A stretch of 27,525 bases of DNA from a bacterium (GTDB lineage Bacteria; UBP15; UBA6099; JAJRTR01), in NCBI GenBank assembly GCA_024278215.1, contig JAJRTR010000009.1, positions 1 to 27,525 on the forward strand, read 5' to 3'. A program made the translations under genes and the position numbers. Below the pieces are notes generated by a model, which was not told where the DNA came from, searched no databases, and saw nothing but the letters and a program-made list of their open reading frames with translations. Shown in pieces: positions 3-27,525 of the stretch. Numbering within the stretch: position 1 is the first letter of the stretch; every line of letters begins with the position of its first letter.

Positions 3-1457
3 AAGTGGCTGAACGATAATAGCATCCCGACCGTTCGCGGCAACAAATGGAGGGCTGCTTCGTTCTCGCGCATGCTCCGGAACGAAATCTATATCGGACA
101 TATCGTGTACAACAAAGAGGAAAGAAAAGGGATAAAGAACGGCAATCCGCGAAACCAGAAGGACAAAGATAAATTGATTCGAGTAGAAAACGCCGTGCCG
201 CCCATTGTGCCGACAGTCGTATTCGACCGCGTTCAGAAAAGACTGGGGGAAAAAGGCCGGGCAAACGCGCAATACAACAACTCGCAATACCTCCTGAGCG
301 GTCTGATAAAATGCAATGTCTGCGGTCTGGCCTATTTCGGACGTTCTCCAAAGCACAAATCCAATGGAAAAACATACGTGCTATCTCAATACATCTGCTC
401 TAAGCAGAACCGCTATAACGAAAAGCGCGACAACGTGAATCTGCGACGGGAGTGGTTTGAGGAGCTTATCGTCAACCGGCTCTTCAACAAAATTCTATCG
501 GAGACAAATATCAAAGAGAAGGTCAGGAATGTGAAGGCCTCAATGGAAAATGCAGTTGCGGAGCGAAAGGCGGCTATCGGTAAGCTGAACAAAAAGAAGA
601 AACAGATTGAAGATGGCATGGAGAAATATTACGAAGCGTTCGAACAAGGAACCCTGAATCCCGCCGACCTTGAGCGCCGCATAAAAGGCCAGCGTGAAAG
701 GCTCGAGGAAATCGACATCGAGTTAGTGAATCTGCATAACGAAATTCTTCTTTGTGAAGTCCGCCAAGACAGCAGGTCTGAAACGATTCTGGACATCGAT
801 ATAGACAGGTTGAAAGAACTCTTCGAACTGTTGCCAATAGAAAAAAGGAAGCAATTCATAAAAGCGTTCATCGAGAAGATCGTGGTTGATCCATCCTGGT
901 TTGAAATCCATTATTCGCTGCCAACCGGCTTTGAAATCGAGCGCATCATTCAAGGGAACAGTCCGGACGACGGAGGCGGAGGAAATGGCAATAATGGGGG
1001 CAGTGGAAACGGCGACGGGACGCATTACTTAAGTAGGTTGCAAAACGATTTTAGTACATGTAAGAGTCAGCATTTAAGTAAAATTTCAGGCGCGAAACCG
1101 GTATCCGACGCGCTTTTGCTCGACGGCGGAAAAGAAAGCGCGTTACATCCGAAAATCGACGGGGTCACAAAAAACCGCGCAAACAGCGGGCTTTTTTTGA
1201 TAGAGGGCGGAAACAGCAACGGAAAAAGCCGCTCACATTTTTGTGCATATGATACAAACGGAGAGGGTGGGATTCGAACCCACGTAGATGCAGAACACCT
1301 AAACGGTTTTCGAGACCGCCGCCTTCAACCGCTCGGCCACCTCTCCTTGTATAAATTACTCATTATAGGTTTTATGCTGTTTTTGTCAATGTGCTTCGAA
1401 CCGTGGGTGGGATATGATATAAAAGTGGGTATAAGGGGGGGGACTCTTTTTTTGTGA
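3..1457 (+). CDS. Large serine recombinase, C-terminal part (5' truncated by window edge, no stop before host sequence)
   Basis: This is the 3' part of a large serine site-specific recombinase, the enzyme that integrates or excises a mobile element. The frame is open from base 3, and the N-terminal catalytic resolvase domain lies outside the window. Visible parts are the end of the recombinase DNA-binding domain (RMLRNEIYIGHIVYNK), a zinc beta-ribbon (LIKCNVCGLAYFG, then a later Cys in YICSKQ) at about 79-108 counted from the first Met (base 72), a Lys/Glu-rich coiled coil at about 155-225, and a closing FEIHYSLPTGFEIE segment. After about base 960 comes a Gly/Asn-rich tail and then sequence unlike any recombinase. 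The frame continues across a terminator and an antisense tRNA-Ser gene to TGA at 1455-1457. The last 80 or more residues are therefore probably not real protein. The genuine end is likely between 960 and 1080, near the element's attachment site (inference). Confidence 0.85.
   Translation, partial: KWLNDNSIPTVRGNKWRAASFSRMLRNEIYIGHIVYNKEERKGIKNGNPRNQKDKDKLIRVENAVPPIVPTVVFDRVQKRLGEKGRANAQYNNSQYLLSGLIKCNVCGLAYFGRSPKHKSNGKTYVLSQYICSKQNRYNEKRDNVNLRREWFEELIVNRLFNKILSETNIKEKVRNVKASMENAVAERKAAIGKLNKKKKQIEDGMEKYYEAFEQGTLNPADLERRIKGQRERLEEIDIELVNLHNEILLCEVRQDSRSETILDIDIDRLKELFELLPIEKRKQFIKAFIEKIVVDPSWFEIHYSLPTGFEIERIIQGNSPDDGGGGNGNNGGSGNGDGTHYLSRLQNDFSTCKSQHLSKISGAKPVSDALLLDGGKESALHPKIDGVTKNRANSGLFLIEGGNSNGKSRSHFCAYDTNGEGGIRTHVDAEHLNGFRDRRLQPLGHLSLYKLLIIGFMLFLSMCFEPWVGYDIKVGIRGGTLFL
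1168..1198 (-). terminator. Probable intrinsic terminator of the tRNA-Ser gene (also T-rich on the + strand)
   Basis: A short GC stem (CCGC / GCGG, 7-nt loop) lies between a run of six A and a run of seven T. It reads as a hairpin followed by a T-run on both strands. It starts about 60 bp downstream of the tRNA-Ser 3' end on the minus strand. On the plus strand it would also stop transcription of the recombinase frame. The GC part of the stem is only 4 bp, so strength is uncertain. Confidence 0.5.
1259..1346 (-). tRNA. tRNA-Ser(CGA)
   Basis: The minus strand folds as a class II tRNA. The acceptor stem is GGAGAGG / CCTCTCC with discriminator G. The anticodon stem GCGGT / ACCGT encloses the loop CTCGAAA, giving anticodon CGA (reads UCG, Ser). 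There is a long variable arm as expected for serine, and a T-arm GTGGG-TTCGAAT-CCCAC. The 3' CCA is not encoded, since the next bases are TTT. It must therefore be added by a CCA-adding enzyme, and one is encoded at 8909-10204. A consensus promoter lies just upstream. The gene overlaps, in antisense, the run-on frame of the serine recombinase. Confidence 0.97.
1362..1389 (-). promoter_or_regulatory. Sigma-70-type promoter of tRNA-Ser
   Basis: On the minus strand there is a perfect -35 TTGACA (1384-1389), a 16-bp spacer and a perfect -10 TATAAT (1362-1367). The expected transcription start is about 9 bases before the tRNA 5' end. It matches the RpoD-family sigma factor encoded in the same window. 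Confidence 0.88.
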
Positions 1458-22326: not shown

Positions 22327-22611
22327 GTGACCGATGAAAACCAAAAAGATGCAGATGAAAAAAGTTCTACGGAGCATGAACCGGAGAATGAGAGCCGATT
22401 ATATAAGAAGCTCACGCCCTTCAGGTCTGCTGCTGTATTCGTCAATATACCGATAACTCTTCTGGCATGTACTATAGTAGGTTACCTTATAGGAGATTTT
22501 ATAGAGAAACGGATACCCGCTGGTGGTGCTTTTGTAGCGGTTTTTTCGATGCTGGGCGTTGCCGCAGGCTTTCGCGAGATACTGATGCTGGTAAAAAAAC
22601 GCAATAAATAA
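22327..22611 (+). CDS. atpZ: AtpZ-like F0F1 ATPase-associated membrane protein
   Basis: This small protein at the head of the atp operon has 94 aa. It has a hydrophilic, acidic N-terminus (1-30) and two membrane segments (about 34-55 and 66-85), separated by the short loop GDFIEKRIPAG. This layout and GYLIGDFIEKR match AtpZ/AtpQ-type proteins. Those are encoded with AtpI and are thought to help assemble the c-ring or move Mg2+/Ca2+. The GTG start coincides with the predicted transcription start, so it should be read without a Shine-Dalgarno sequence. Confidence 0.8.
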   Translation: MTDENQKDADEKSSTEHEPENESRLYKKLTPFRSAAVFVNIPITLLACTIVGYLIGDFIEKRIPAGGAFVAVFSMLGVAAGFREILMLVKKRNK

Positions 22612-22633
22612 AGGTTTTTTTGAAGATTGTTTT

Positions 22634-23020
22634 ATGGAAGAAAATAATAATTCGCACACTCTTGACAAAAGCCTACTTACCAATATAATTGGAAACTCAT
22701 GTTGGACTGCTCCATTTATTGGACTTGTCCTGTACCTTGTCAGGTCATATCTACCGGGAAGATTCGCAGAGGGCTTCCTTTACGGGGCCGTATGCGGGAC
22801 TGCCAACCTCTATTTTCTGAGAGTACTCCTCACGGAAACAACGAATCCACAGGGGGCAAAGATAATCAGAGTGGCATGGAGCGCAGTGGGGTTGATCGGA
22901 ATAATCGTCGCCTACTTCTACATCTTCTCGACACACTGGTTGAACGATGCGGCGATGGTGATAGGATTTTCATACTTCATCGTCATGACGGTAATTGCAG
23001 GAATATTTCGGAAAAGCTAA
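22634..23020 (+). CDS. atpI: AtpI-like ATP synthase assembly protein
   Basis: This membrane protein of 128 aa has four hydrophobic segments (about 25-41, 45-66, 78-100 and 106-125), placed between atpZ and atpB as AtpI usually is. AtpI acts as a c-ring assembly factor in characterised bacteria. Sequence conservation in this family is low, so the call rests mainly on topology, length and position. The ATG at 22634 has only a weak upstream GAAG. Confidence 0.75.
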   Translation: MEENNNSHTLDKSLLTNIIGNSCWTAPFIGLVLYLVRSYLPGRFAEGFLYGAVCGTANLYFLRVLLTETTNPQGAKIIRVAWSAVGLIGIIVAYFYIFSTHWLNDAAMVIGFSYFIVMTVIAGIFRKS

Positions 23021-23035
23021 GAAAGGCTCTACGGA

Positions 23036-24013
23036 ATGAGCGCACAAGAACAGGCAGTGCACAGCGGCGGGCAAATGGAGATGGAACACGCTCCCGCTTA
23101 CAACACAAATGCAGCTACGGCTCACAGCGAAGCAGCGGTGCAGGGCAATGCACATACCGGAGCAGAAGCCGGCGGACATGGCGAGCAGCAGGAAGAAGGC
23201 ATTCCGGAGCTTGAGAATTTCCTCGACTACTATCTGATGGCAAAAACTGGTGAAGACCTGCATACTATTCACAATACTGTGCTGGTCGGAAAACAGCCCG
23301 CGCCCGGCGAAGAACCCAGTTCGATGACGCTCACATGGCTTGATCTCATAAATGTATCTTACGCTTTTCTCACCATAATTATACTCACGGTCATATCACT
23401 TCGTGTAAAAAGCAAACTCACAAAGATACCGTCAGGTTTCCAGGTACTTGTGGAAGCATTTGTACAATGGATGGACGGATTCGTCAAAGCGATAATTGGC
23501 CACGACGGCAGGAAATTCACTCCTTTCATCGGAACAATATTCATTTACATACTCTTTATGAACTATCTTGGGCTCATCCCCTTTATGAAAGCGCCTATCG
23601 CGCTTAATATCAATGTGCCGTTATCAATGGCAATCTGTGTTTTCTTCCTCGTGCAGTACAGAGGCATCACCCAGAACGGATTGGTGAAATACATCAAGCA
23701 CTTCACAGGCGATTCGTCCGGTATGGTCGTGCTCGACGTTTTATTGATGCCACTTAATCTGGTATTGCATACAATAGGGGAAATCGCAAAACCGCTCACG
23801 CTCTCACTCAGGCTTTTTGGAAACATTACGGGTGAGGATGTTGTCATCGCCGCGCTGGTAGGCCTGACGGTGGGAGTAACATTTTTCCCGATACCGCTCC
23901 AGGCGCTGTTCTATCCGCTGGCGCTGCTGTTCGGATTCATTCAGGCATTAGTGTTTGCCACCCTCAGCGCTGTCTACATTCTTCTGATGTCGGCGCATGA
24001 GGAGCATCATTAA
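23036..24013 (+). CDS. atpB: F0F1 ATP synthase subunit a, with long hydrophilic N-terminus
   Basis: Subunit a forms the ion half-channels against the c-ring. The essential Arg is at 259 in LTLSLRLFGNITGED. Other family segments are FIGTIFIYILFMNYLGLIPFM and IGEIAKPLTLSLRLFG. At 325 aa it is some 50-80 residues longer than common forms. The excess is at the N-terminus, where residues 1-95 are hydrophilic and rich in Ala, His, Glu and Gly, before the first membrane helix at about 98-120. Membrane segments follow at about 162-184, 193-207, 231-250 and 265-318. It is 15 bases downstream of atpI. Confidence 0.95.
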   Translation: MSAQEQAVHSGGQMEMEHAPAYNTNAATAHSEAAVQGNAHTGAEAGGHGEQQEEGIPELENFLDYYLMAKTGEDLHTIHNTVLVGKQPAPGEEPSSMTLTWLDLINVSYAFLTIIILTVISLRVKSKLTKIPSGFQVLVEAFVQWMDGFVKAIIGHDGRKFTPFIGTIFIYILFMNYLGLIPFMKAPIALNINVPLSMAICVFFLVQYRGITQNGLVKYIKHFTGDSSGMVVLDVLLMPLNLVLHTIGEIAKPLTLSLRLFGNITGEDVVIAALVGLTVGVTFFPIPLQALFYPLALLFGFIQALVFATLSAVYILLMSAHEEHH

Positions 24014-24055
24014 GCATAAATCAGACTGTTAGAAAGTGGAAGGAGGACACACTTC

Positions 24056-24295
24056 ATGGACGCCAAAGAAGCAGTTGATCTGATGAGGTTAGGACTACCG
24101 ATGGGAGTCGGGCTCGCCGCATTCGGATGTGCGCTCGGACTGGGTAACGCAGTCAGCAGTGCGATGAACGCGATCTCCAGACAACCGGAAGCCGCAGACA
24201 AAATCCAGACGGCAATGATCATCGGTTGTGCTCTGATCGAAGCTCTCACGATTTACGCTCTAGTCGTAGTGTTCGTACTTTCGGGCAAGCTGTGA
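24056..24295 (+). CDS. atpE: F0F1 ATP synthase subunit c
   Basis: The rotor-ring subunit is 79 aa, a two-helix hairpin with the polar loop RQPEA (42-46). The ion-binding carboxylate is Glu62 in helix 2 ([13 protein letters not shown]). The residues that make a sodium site are missing. The Gln of the Ilyobacter sodium ring aligns with Leu29, and the Ser after the carboxylate aligns with Ala63. The ring is therefore probably proton-specific (inference from alignment by eye). Helix 1 has a reduced glycine motif (FGCALGLG). A strong AGGAGG lies 8 bases before the ATG, fitting the high demand for this subunit. Confidence 0.95.
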
Positions 24296-24369
24296 TCCCG
24301 AAGAAACCGCGTTTTCGCCCATAAAGCGGAGACGGCAATTTTCCTTGCTGTAGTTCTGGAGGTGCTGGA

Positions 24370-24876
24370 ATGGAAGAGATATTTGGTTCGCTGGGTATTA
24401 AACCTATGCAAATTGCTATACAGATGCTGGGATTTTTTCTGGTATTCGGGCTGCTGGCCAAGCTTCTGTGGAAGCCTGTACTCGACCTCATGGACGCGCG
24501 GGAAAATGAAGTAAAAGATCTCTTCGACAAGGCTGAAAACGCCAAGAAGGAGAGCGAGCAGTTGATGGCGGAGTACAAGGACCATCTCGAAAAAATCAAG
24601 GAAGAGGCCCAGGAGAAAATCGCCGAGGGCATCGCCAGAGGCAACGAGATGGGTGATAAGATCGTAAACGATGCCAGAAAGATGGCGGAGCAGGAAAAAC
24701 AGCGAGCAATAAACGCCATTGAGGACGAGGCTACAAAAGCCAGGATGGAACTGCGGGATTTCGCCGTCACTCTCTCCATGGATATAGCCGAAAAGGTTCT
24801 CCAGGCTGAGGTTGACAGGTCAAAGCACGAGAATCTCGTCAAAAAGCTTGTATCCGATCTGGAATCTATGAACTGA
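24370..24876 (+). CDS. atpF: F0F1 ATP synthase subunit b
   Basis: The peripheral stalk subunit is 168 aa. It has one N-terminal membrane helix (about 11-33, IQMLGFFLVFGLLAKLLW) followed by a long charged coiled coil (AENAKKESEQLMAEYKDHLEK and on) that holds delta and alpha. Only one b gene is seen, with no b' copy. GGAGG precedes the ATG by 9 bases. The gap after atpE contains a weak CCGC/GCGG inverted repeat that could separate expression of c from the rest. Confidence 0.94.
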   Translation: MEEIFGSLGIKPMQIAIQMLGFFLVFGLLAKLLWKPVLDLMDARENEVKDLFDKAENAKKESEQLMAEYKDHLEKIKEEAQEKIAEGIARGNEMGDKIVNDARKMAEQEKQRAINAIEDEATKARMELRDFAVTLSMDIAEKVLQAEVDRSKHENLVKKLVSDLESMN

Positions 24877-24892
24877 GGAGCTGTAAGGGAAC

Positions 24893-25438
24893 ATGCTGAA
24901 ACGCGCCATAGCTACAAGATACGCAACGGCTCTTTTCCTGCTTGCTGAAGAAAAGGGTATACTCGAGGACATCGAAAGAGACTTCCCCGGTGTAGCCGAT
25001 GTATACAGCAGCAGTGAGGAACTAACACGTTTCCTGACACACCCGGCAATAGGTCCCGGAGAGAAGAAGGAAGTGCTCGAAAAACTTTTCGAGGGGAAGA
25101 TTCACGAGACTCTCTATGATCTAGTGATGATGACTGTCGACAAGAACCGCGAGGAGTACATCCCCCTGATATGGGAAGACTTCAGGCGGTTGCTGATGGA
25201 GCATCGCGGACAGATGAGGGCGACGATATTTTCGCCATTTGAGCTGTCCACAGAATTGAAGCAGGAAGTTGAGATCGGTCTTGAGAAAGTGACCGGCAAG
25301 ACAATTCTGCTTGAAGAGAAAGTCGACAACAGTTTAATAGGTGGTATCAGAATTCTGATTGGCGACCGCGTTTATGACGGCAGCGTGGTCAGCACACTGG
25401 AGCAGTTGCGTGAAACGCTGATGACTGCGCCGGTATGA
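24893..25438 (+). CDS. atpH: F0F1 ATP synthase subunit delta
   Basis: The delta subunit links the top of F1 (alpha) to the b stalk. At 181 aa it has the usual length, beginning AIATRYATALFLLAEEKG. The C-terminal signature GKTILLEEKVDNSLIGGIRILIGDRVYDGSV matches the family segment that contacts subunit b. It lies 16 bases after atpF. An AAGGGA lies just before the ATG. Confidence 0.95.
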   Translation: MLKRAIATRYATALFLLAEEKGILEDIERDFPGVADVYSSSEELTRFLTHPAIGPGEKKEVLEKLFEGKIHETLYDLVMMTVDKNREEYIPLIWEDFRRLLMEHRGQMRATIFSPFELSTELKQEVEIGLEKVTGKTILLEEKVDNSLIGGIRILIGDRVYDGSVVSTLEQLRETLMTAPV

Positions 25439-25452
25439 TTAGTTAGAGGTGA

Positions 25453-26979
25453 ATGATGAGCCTGAAACCGGAAGAAGTAAGCTCAGTACTGAAAGACCAA
25501 CTGGAAAAGTACCAGTCCAAGGTCGAAATGACCGATGTGGGCACCATACTCCAGGTTGGTGACGGTATCGCACGAATATACGGCCTCAGCAGCGCGATGG
25601 CCGGGGAGATGCTCGAATTTCCCGGCGGTGTCAAAGGCATGGTTCTCAACCTTGAAGAGGACAATGTCGGCGCAGTTCTGTTCGGTTCCGATGTAGGAAT
25701 CAAAGAGGGCGACACGGTACGCTGCACGGGTAAAATCGCCTCCGTTCCTGTTGGTGAAGCCATACTCGGCAGAGTTCTCAACGCTGTCGGCGAGCCGATC
25801 GACAACAAGGGGCCCATCGCTTCAGATGAAAACCGTGTTATCGAAATAAAGGCGGTCGGCATCACGGAACGCCAGCCGGTAAAGCAGCCTGTCCAGACAG
25901 GTGTCAAGGCCATCGACGCCATGATCCCCATCGGACGCGGCCAGCGCGAACTAATCATCGGTGACCGCGGCACAGGCAAAACAGCTGTCGCCGTCGACGC
26001 TATTATTAATCAGAAGAGCTCAGACATGCTCTGCATCTATGTCGCTATCGGACAGAAGGCTTCAACGGTTGTCGGCATCCACGATGTTCTTTAAAAACAC
26101 GGCGCGATGGAATATACCACCATCGTTACCGCCAGTGCCATGGAACCAGCACCGCTCCAGTATGTAGCGCCATACGCGGGATGCACTATGGCTGAGTACT
26201 TCATGCTGAAAGGCAAGGACGTCCTTATAGTATACGACGATCTCTCGAAACAGGCTGTCGCGTACCGGCAGCTTTCACTACTGCTGCGCCGCCCACCCGG
26301 ACGAGAAGCATACCCCGGAGACGTTTTCTATCTGCACAGCAGGTTGCTCGAGCGAGCTGTCAAGCTCAGCGATGAAAACGGTGCCGGCTCGATCACCGCA
26401 CTGCCGATAATCGAGACACAGGCAGGTGACGTATCGGCATACATACCGACGAATGTTATTTCCATTACGGACGGACAGATGTTCCTTGAAACCGACCTGT
26501 TCTACGCCGGCGTAAGACCGGCCATCAATGTTGGTATATCCGTTTCCCGCGTAGGCGGCAACGCGCAGACGAAAGCTATGAAGAAGGTGGCCGGCAAGCT
26601 GCGGCTCGACCTTGCACAGTATCGCGAGCTCGAGGCATTCGCGCAGTTCGGTTCCGACCTCGACAAAGCCACACAGATGCAACTCACACGCGGTGCGCGC
26701 ATGGTCGAGATTCTCAAGCAGGATCAGTATGTACCGCTGACACTCGGTAAGCAGATATTGATTATTTTCGCAGGCAGTAATGGCTATATCGATGATGTGC
26801 CAATCGAAGCGGTAGCGCAATTTGAAAAAGAGTATTATCTATTTATGGATAGTAAATATCCTGATATTGCTAAGGAAATAGAAGAGTCAAAAGATATTTC
26901 CGAGAGCCTGGATAAAAAGATGAGAAAAGCGATAGAAGAATTCAAGTCACAGTTTAAACCGGCGGAAGCGAAAATTTGA
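25453..26979 (+). pseudogene. atpA: F0F1 ATP synthase subunit alpha, interrupted by an in-frame TAA
   Basis: The nucleotide-binding, non-catalytic F1 subunit has a Walker A motif GDRGTGKTA (170-178) and IGQKASTVV. The frame meets TAA at 26092-26094 (codon 214) and continues in the same frame as [11 protein letters not shown], then [18 protein letters not shown] and the C-terminal domain. The distance from STV to GAM equals that in other alpha subunits. Exactly one codon, usually Glu or another residue, is replaced by a stop. The whole region is 508 codons, normal for AtpA, and has no other damage. It could be a recent nonsense mutation, a sequencing or assembly error, or read-through. An AGAGG lies 6 bases before the second ATG (25456), the likelier start. 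Confidence 0.93.
26092..26094 (+). other. In-frame ochre codon inside atpA
   Basis: The codon series is GTT CTT TAA AAA CAC GGC GCG ATG. A change of T to G gives GAA, the residue commonly seen here (L-E-K-H-G-A-M). Both sides are in the same frame, so neither a +1 nor a -1 shift would restore the protein. Confidence 0.9.
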
Positions 26980-27016: not shown

Positions 27017-27525
27017 ATTCCTGAAAATCCGAGACAAATACGCAGAAGAATAGGAAGCGTCAAGAGTACGCAGAAGATCACGAGCGCCATGAAGATGGTT
27101 GCAGCCGCAAAACTCAGACGCGCTGAAGAACGCGCGAAAACTGCAAAGCCCTATTCAGATAAACTCCAGTCTTTTTTTGAAAGATTGGATGTCGGGCAGG
27201 ACAATATCCCCCATCCTCTTGCGGCCACAAGGCCTCATGTCAACAATACCGGTTTAATTATCATCACATCCGATAAGGGGCTTTGCGGCAGTTTCAACAG
27301 CAATATCATACGGAAAGCACATGTGTGGATTACCGAAAAGGATGAATCAAAAGTAAAACTATATGTAGTAGGGCGTAAGGGTGTGGGCACGTTAAAAAAG
27401 CAGCACGGGATGAATATAGAGGAAACTTATGTTGGTATCAACCAGGCTCTTGATTACAAGGAAATCAAAAGAATAGCAGACAAAGTTTCCAAAGATTTTA
27501 TCGAAGAGAAAATTGATGAATGCTA
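27017..27525 (+). CDS. atpG: F0F1 ATP synthase subunit gamma, 5' part, with ATT start
   Basis: This is the central rotor shaft of F1. About 169 residues are present before the window ends. After the start the sequence reads PENPRQIRRRIGSVKSTQKI, then ITSAMKMVAAAKLRRAEE and IITSDKGLCGSFNSNIIRKA, all diagnostic of gamma. No ATG, GTG or TTG is available. The frame is closed by TGA at 27008-27010, and the codons after it are TCG, GCT and ATT. The ATT at 27017 falls where the family Met is, and an AGGGG (27003-27007) lies 9 bases before it, so it is the likely start. The next Met would remove the N-terminal helix. It follows atpA by 37 bases. atpD and atpC are expected beyond the window. Confidence 0.92.
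   Translation, partial: MPENPRQIRRRIGSVKSTQKITSAMKMVAAAKLRRAEERAKTAKPYSDKLQSFFERLDVGQDNIPHPLAATRPHVNNTGLIIITSDKGLCGSFNSNIIRKAHVWITEKDESKVKLYVVGRKGVGTLKKQHGMNIEETYVGINQALDYKEIKRIADKVSKDFIEEKIDEC

Follow-up and report, generated by a model that had tools for sequence, protein, structure and literature searches.

The window, by which we mean the whole stretch of DNA that was analysed (27,525 nucleotides, contig C141), carries atp genes up to its right-hand end. The features considered here are as follows.

22327..25438, + strand: upstream atp genes (atpI-like, atpB, atpE, atpF, atpH), all open, named from the known operon order and the sequence
25453..26979, + strand: atpA (F1 ATP synthase alpha), 508 codons plus a terminal stop, full length save for one in-frame TAA (from the open reading frame listing, the read-through translation, and Pfam and PDB matches that span the site)
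26092..26094, + strand: in-frame TAA, codon 214 of atpA (from the sequence and the homologue residues at this column)
26107..26979, + strand: open reading frame of 290 amino acids whose ATG lies 12 bases past the TAA; it is the C-terminal portion of AtpA rather than a gene in its own right, and lacks the P-loop
27017..27523, + strand: 5' part of atpG (gamma subunit), with an ATT start at 27017 behind GAGAGGGG; the gene continues on contig C94
27469..27525, + strand: contig end overlapping the start of C94 over about 57 bases with two mismatches; a GAG here is TAG in C94

At the contig start, a site-specific recombinase reading frame (window 3-1457) overlies a tRNA-Ser(CGA) gene (1259-1346) on the opposite strand, an arrangement of the kind seen where an integrated element ends.

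The atpA frame from 25453 to 26979 contains exactly one internal stop, with 213 codons on its 5' side and 294 codons on its 3' side. Translated through the site with X at position 214, AtpA aligned with solved F1 alpha subunits over residues 3-502, gap-free at the site (9nvl, E 3e-232), and matched the Pfam family ATP-synt_ab at all 213 model positions, the domain spanning the stop. The reading frame around the TAA is certain and the stop is present in the sequence as given; the original prediction, that codon 214 is TAA with frame and spacing intact on both sides, was confirmed by the continuity of the Pfam and PDB alignments.

The residue at this position varies among relatives, always with a sense codon. 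In 95 aligned relatives, column 214 holds Glu in 60, Arg in 15, Lys in 10 and a few other residues (sense codon in 95/95), and within the order the codon reads GAA in G002 and AAA in G001, G003 and G004, so that the TAA proposed as something to look for in sister genomes was not found there. Of the listed AtpA matches, which cover 60 genomes, the copy in this genome alone has a stop. Over the near-invariant AtpA columns (at least 95% conserved, n = 156, 95 relatives), the protein shows 2 deviations, both conservative, against a median of 1 in the relatives; judged by these columns, AtpA conservation is normal and the protein appears to be under no relaxed constraint. Residue 173 (window 25969-25971), within the P-loop GDRGTGKT, is Gly where 89/95 relatives carry Gln; Gly occurs in two relatives.

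We searched the whole assembly (4.55 Mb, 207 contigs, about 95% complete) with the ATP-synt_ab family (PF00006), which matched four genes, namely atpA here, atpD on C94, fliI on C128 and rho on C126. A second F-type alpha subunit or a V/A-type ATPase was not found in this search of the 207 contigs, and the suggestion of a nonsense mutation backed by a second ATPase therefore fails. As there is no substitute for AtpA, a real nonsense mutation would leave the cell without ATP synthase.

We then scanned 1.22 Mb of the same assembly by coding potential for stop codons with uninterrupted coding sequence on either side. Curation by eye, drawing on Pfam, relatives and a single solved structure, left about ten more in-frame stops, each the only lesion of an otherwise intact gene. 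One further case lies beyond these; where residues in relatives were seen, they are given.

C39: hrcA, single in-frame stop
C86: thrB, single in-frame stop; Lys in relatives
C86: glutamine-synthetase-like gene, single in-frame stop; Arg/Asn in relatives
C6: moaE, single in-frame stop; Ser in relatives
C16: hsdM, single in-frame stop
C139: epimerase gene, single in-frame stop
C31: acyl-CoA-synthetase-like gene, single in-frame stop; Asp in relatives
C91: hydrolase gene, single in-frame stop
C98: metallo-beta-lactamase-like gene, single in-frame stop
C94: atpG, single in-frame stop (TAG, against GAG in the window)
C123: ABC domain, one more in-frame stop, beyond the about ten

The same scan over 0.63 Mb of the sister genomes gave, by inspection, ordinary in-frame gene boundaries only and no comparable stop. 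By homology, the sisters showed 0 in-frame stops in 76,703 homology-covered codons, in a scan run with one reading frame per locus since shadow reading frames swamp it otherwise. The homology stop count for this genome is a biased rate, the sister loci having been fetched with the interrupted genes as queries, and the fair comparison of stop frequency between genomes is the coding-potential scan. Isolated stops are in excess in this assembly over related assemblies. A PEGA-domain candidate on C150 was discarded as a conserved gene boundary, whose TAA recurs at this position in four sisters.

A direct conflict within the assembly is found at the end of the window, where the last 57 bases are repeated, with the two mismatches listed above, as positions 1-57 of C94 (locus L003). 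Past the overlap, C94 continues with the rest of atpG, then atpD and atpC, their frames open. Base errors at contig ends with poor coverage produce just such a pair of versions of one atpG stretch, one with a stop and one without; two strains could do the same. A repeat family of about 75-140 bases is dispersed over dozens of places in this genome, often at contig ends (L119 11-94, L180 68-142, L184 14989-15062), and probably breaks the assembly; because it fills the contig ends, their comparison beyond C94 was uninformative.

The interrupting stops are all TAA or TAG and none is TGA. At about 7 of the 11 stop sites that could be read, homologues carry Glu or the duplicate copy carries GAG, against a Glu share of 20% expected for nonsense changes under uniform mutation (the probability of at least 6 of 9 is about 3e-3), and at none of the sites is a transition in a Gln, Trp or CGA codon needed. 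This enrichment suggests G-to-T (or complementary C-to-A) changes. TGA would be expected in only 19% of cases if the changes are G>T or C>A, and its lack is therefore not telling. For missense G>T at conserved columns no excess could be resolved: the ratio was 1.16, with controls at 1.30 and 0.58, in a comparison that had no power and was confounded by divergence. Oxidised DNA is a documented source of artefactual G>T in sequencing libraries (PMC12390751). We offer oxidation chemistry as a suggestion for what caused the stops; the presumed cause lies in chemistry or coverage. In the order's seven genomes (this genome, G000, and sisters G001-G006), the search for Fpg/MutM found none, and MutY-like matches stayed below the family cut-off. 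As Fpg is missing order-wide and its absence is not peculiar to this genome, we rejected lost 8-oxoguanine repair as the cause of the stops.

Altogether, the atpA TAA is very probably an error of the draft consensus that does not exist in the living genome, because AtpA has no substitute, all relatives carry a sense codon, constraint on the protein looks normal, many similar stops lie elsewhere in the assembly and C94 contradicts the window. One base would have been miscalled at a Glu (or Lys) codon of an intact, essential atpA, and the TAA would be one of many isolated TAA/TAG codons strewn over functional genes throughout the assembly; G-to-T (or C-to-A) errors may have entered the consensus uncorrected where coverage was thin or the DNA oxidised. 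We infer that the reads hold a sense codon at 26092-26094. Consensus error was among the options originally listed, and it is the one favoured. Spurious internal stops are documented to arise from assembly at low coverage (PMC11017572). That the contigs bearing stops include long ones, of 86 kb and 63 kb, weighs against this explanation, as do the unresolved missense excess, the stops in thrB, moaE and the glutamine-synthetase-like and acyl-CoA-synthetase-like genes, where the relatives seen have residues other than Glu, and the chance that two strains lie behind the mismatched overlap.

The best-surviving alternative is that some of the population truly carries the nonsense allele, either because strains vary or because 8-oxoguanine repair is weak in a mutator, and that the consensus caught it. 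The two differing copies of the contig-end stretch, the undetected Fpg/MutM with its sub-threshold MutY-like matches and the G-to-T-like spectrum all fit such an allele, but the sisters lack Fpg as well and yet are without such stops, a lineage could hardly keep nonsense changes in its only atpA and several conserved genes at once, and there is a single lesion per gene. We consider this unlikely. Less likely still is that the organism truly bears TAA/TAG at Glu positions of essential genes including atpA, and tolerates them through a low level of read-through or because they segregate as mutator alleles.

It is highly improbable that the codon is truly TAA and decoded as an amino acid, by read-through or a suppressor tRNA. 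Several stops are indeed TAA or TAG at Glu positions with no TGA among them; the absence of TGA, however, carries no weight on the figure given above, and other stops fall at Lys, Arg/Asn or Ser positions, with sense codons in the sister genomes. Long open reading frames in this genome end in TAA 118 times, in TAG 101 times and in TGA 227 times, TAA and TAG together closing 219/446. A genome search gave 46 tRNA matches above the cut-off, and ARAGORN read 46 distinct tRNAs, none with a UUA, CUA or UCA anticodon, in an assembly that lacks up to 5% of the genome. The lack of a stop-reading tRNA, the use of TAA or TAG at the end of about half of the long reading frames and the unconserved atpA stop make suppression unlikely. 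The argument that TAA is a normal stop here and reassignment improbable held up, given the 118 TAA-ended frames and the sense anticodons of all 46 tRNAs, while local read-through, also put forward, found no support with TAA and TAG as routine stops and no suppressor tRNA.

We regard real pseudogenisation, with the ATP synthase being lost, as equally improbable. It would account for the stop in atpA and for an atpG without an ATG, GTG or TTG start. In all 6 of the 6 atpG genes found in the order, however, the start position reads ATT (G000, G002) or ATA (G001, G003, G004, G006), each preceded by a Shine-Dalgarno-like stretch and lying 3 to 6 bases past a TGA in frame. These six genes offer no canonical start ahead of the conserved atpG N terminus; 82 other distinct atpG genes have one available. 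The observation that atpG lacks ATG, GTG and TTG therefore stands, but its reading as a sign of decay does not, as ATT or ATA is common to all six. Incipient decay of the operon is likewise rejected, with AtpA deviating at 2 of 156 near-invariant columns against a median of 1, the other atp genes open (save for the one atpG codon at which C94 is at odds with the window), the atpG start conserved, and no alternative rotary ATPase present. The ATT start as another G-to-T error was ruled out by its conservation in the sister genomes. Finally, a split alpha subunit, restarted at the in-frame ATG at 26107 12 bases past the stop and assembling from two polypeptides, is barely credible, since no Shine-Dalgarno-like ribosome-binding sequence is visible before this ATG, which relatives whose genes are intact share as the conserved Met of 'GAMEYT', and the break would fall within the nucleotide-binding domain.

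With consensus error as the preferred explanation, this is a draft genome with scattered false stops, and claims of gene loss, pseudogenes or recoding made from it need read-level checks. Were the stops real, they would challenge our view of how a cell copes with nonsense changes in essential genes, but the evidence speaks against this. The conserved non-AUG atpG start is a more interesting feature than the atpA stop. The non-AUG start of atpG predicted from the six genes is conserved and resembles that of infC in form; the order makes up the whole of its (small) phylum in the collection searched. An AUU or AUA start may limit gamma-subunit synthesis, and its presence on every atpG found in the phylum could open translational control of gamma-subunit dosage to testing.

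Compared with known systems, the gene is like other F-type ATP synthase alpha subunits in its full-length family match, gap-free alignment and normal operon order, and differs by the one in-frame TAA in its consensus. Stop-codon recoding and suppressor tRNA systems likewise have in-frame TAA/TAG in coding genes; unlike them, this genome has no suppressor tRNA, uses its stops normally and does not share the site with relatives. The spurious pseudogenes of low-coverage drafts (PMC11017572) resemble the present case in showing isolated stops in intact conserved genes in excess over relatives, whereas here a fragmented draft was judged from its contigs alone and the spectrum hints at G-to-T. For the atpG start, non-AUG starts with extended Shine-Dalgarno sequences are described for S. 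aureus infC, ccpN and cvfC1 in the portion of PMC13009471 on which we draw. The start described here is predicted from the sequence and, unlike those cases, sits on atpG, a gene without mention in that portion; an AUU or AUA start, a strong Shine-Dalgarno-like sequence and conservation in relatives are common to both.
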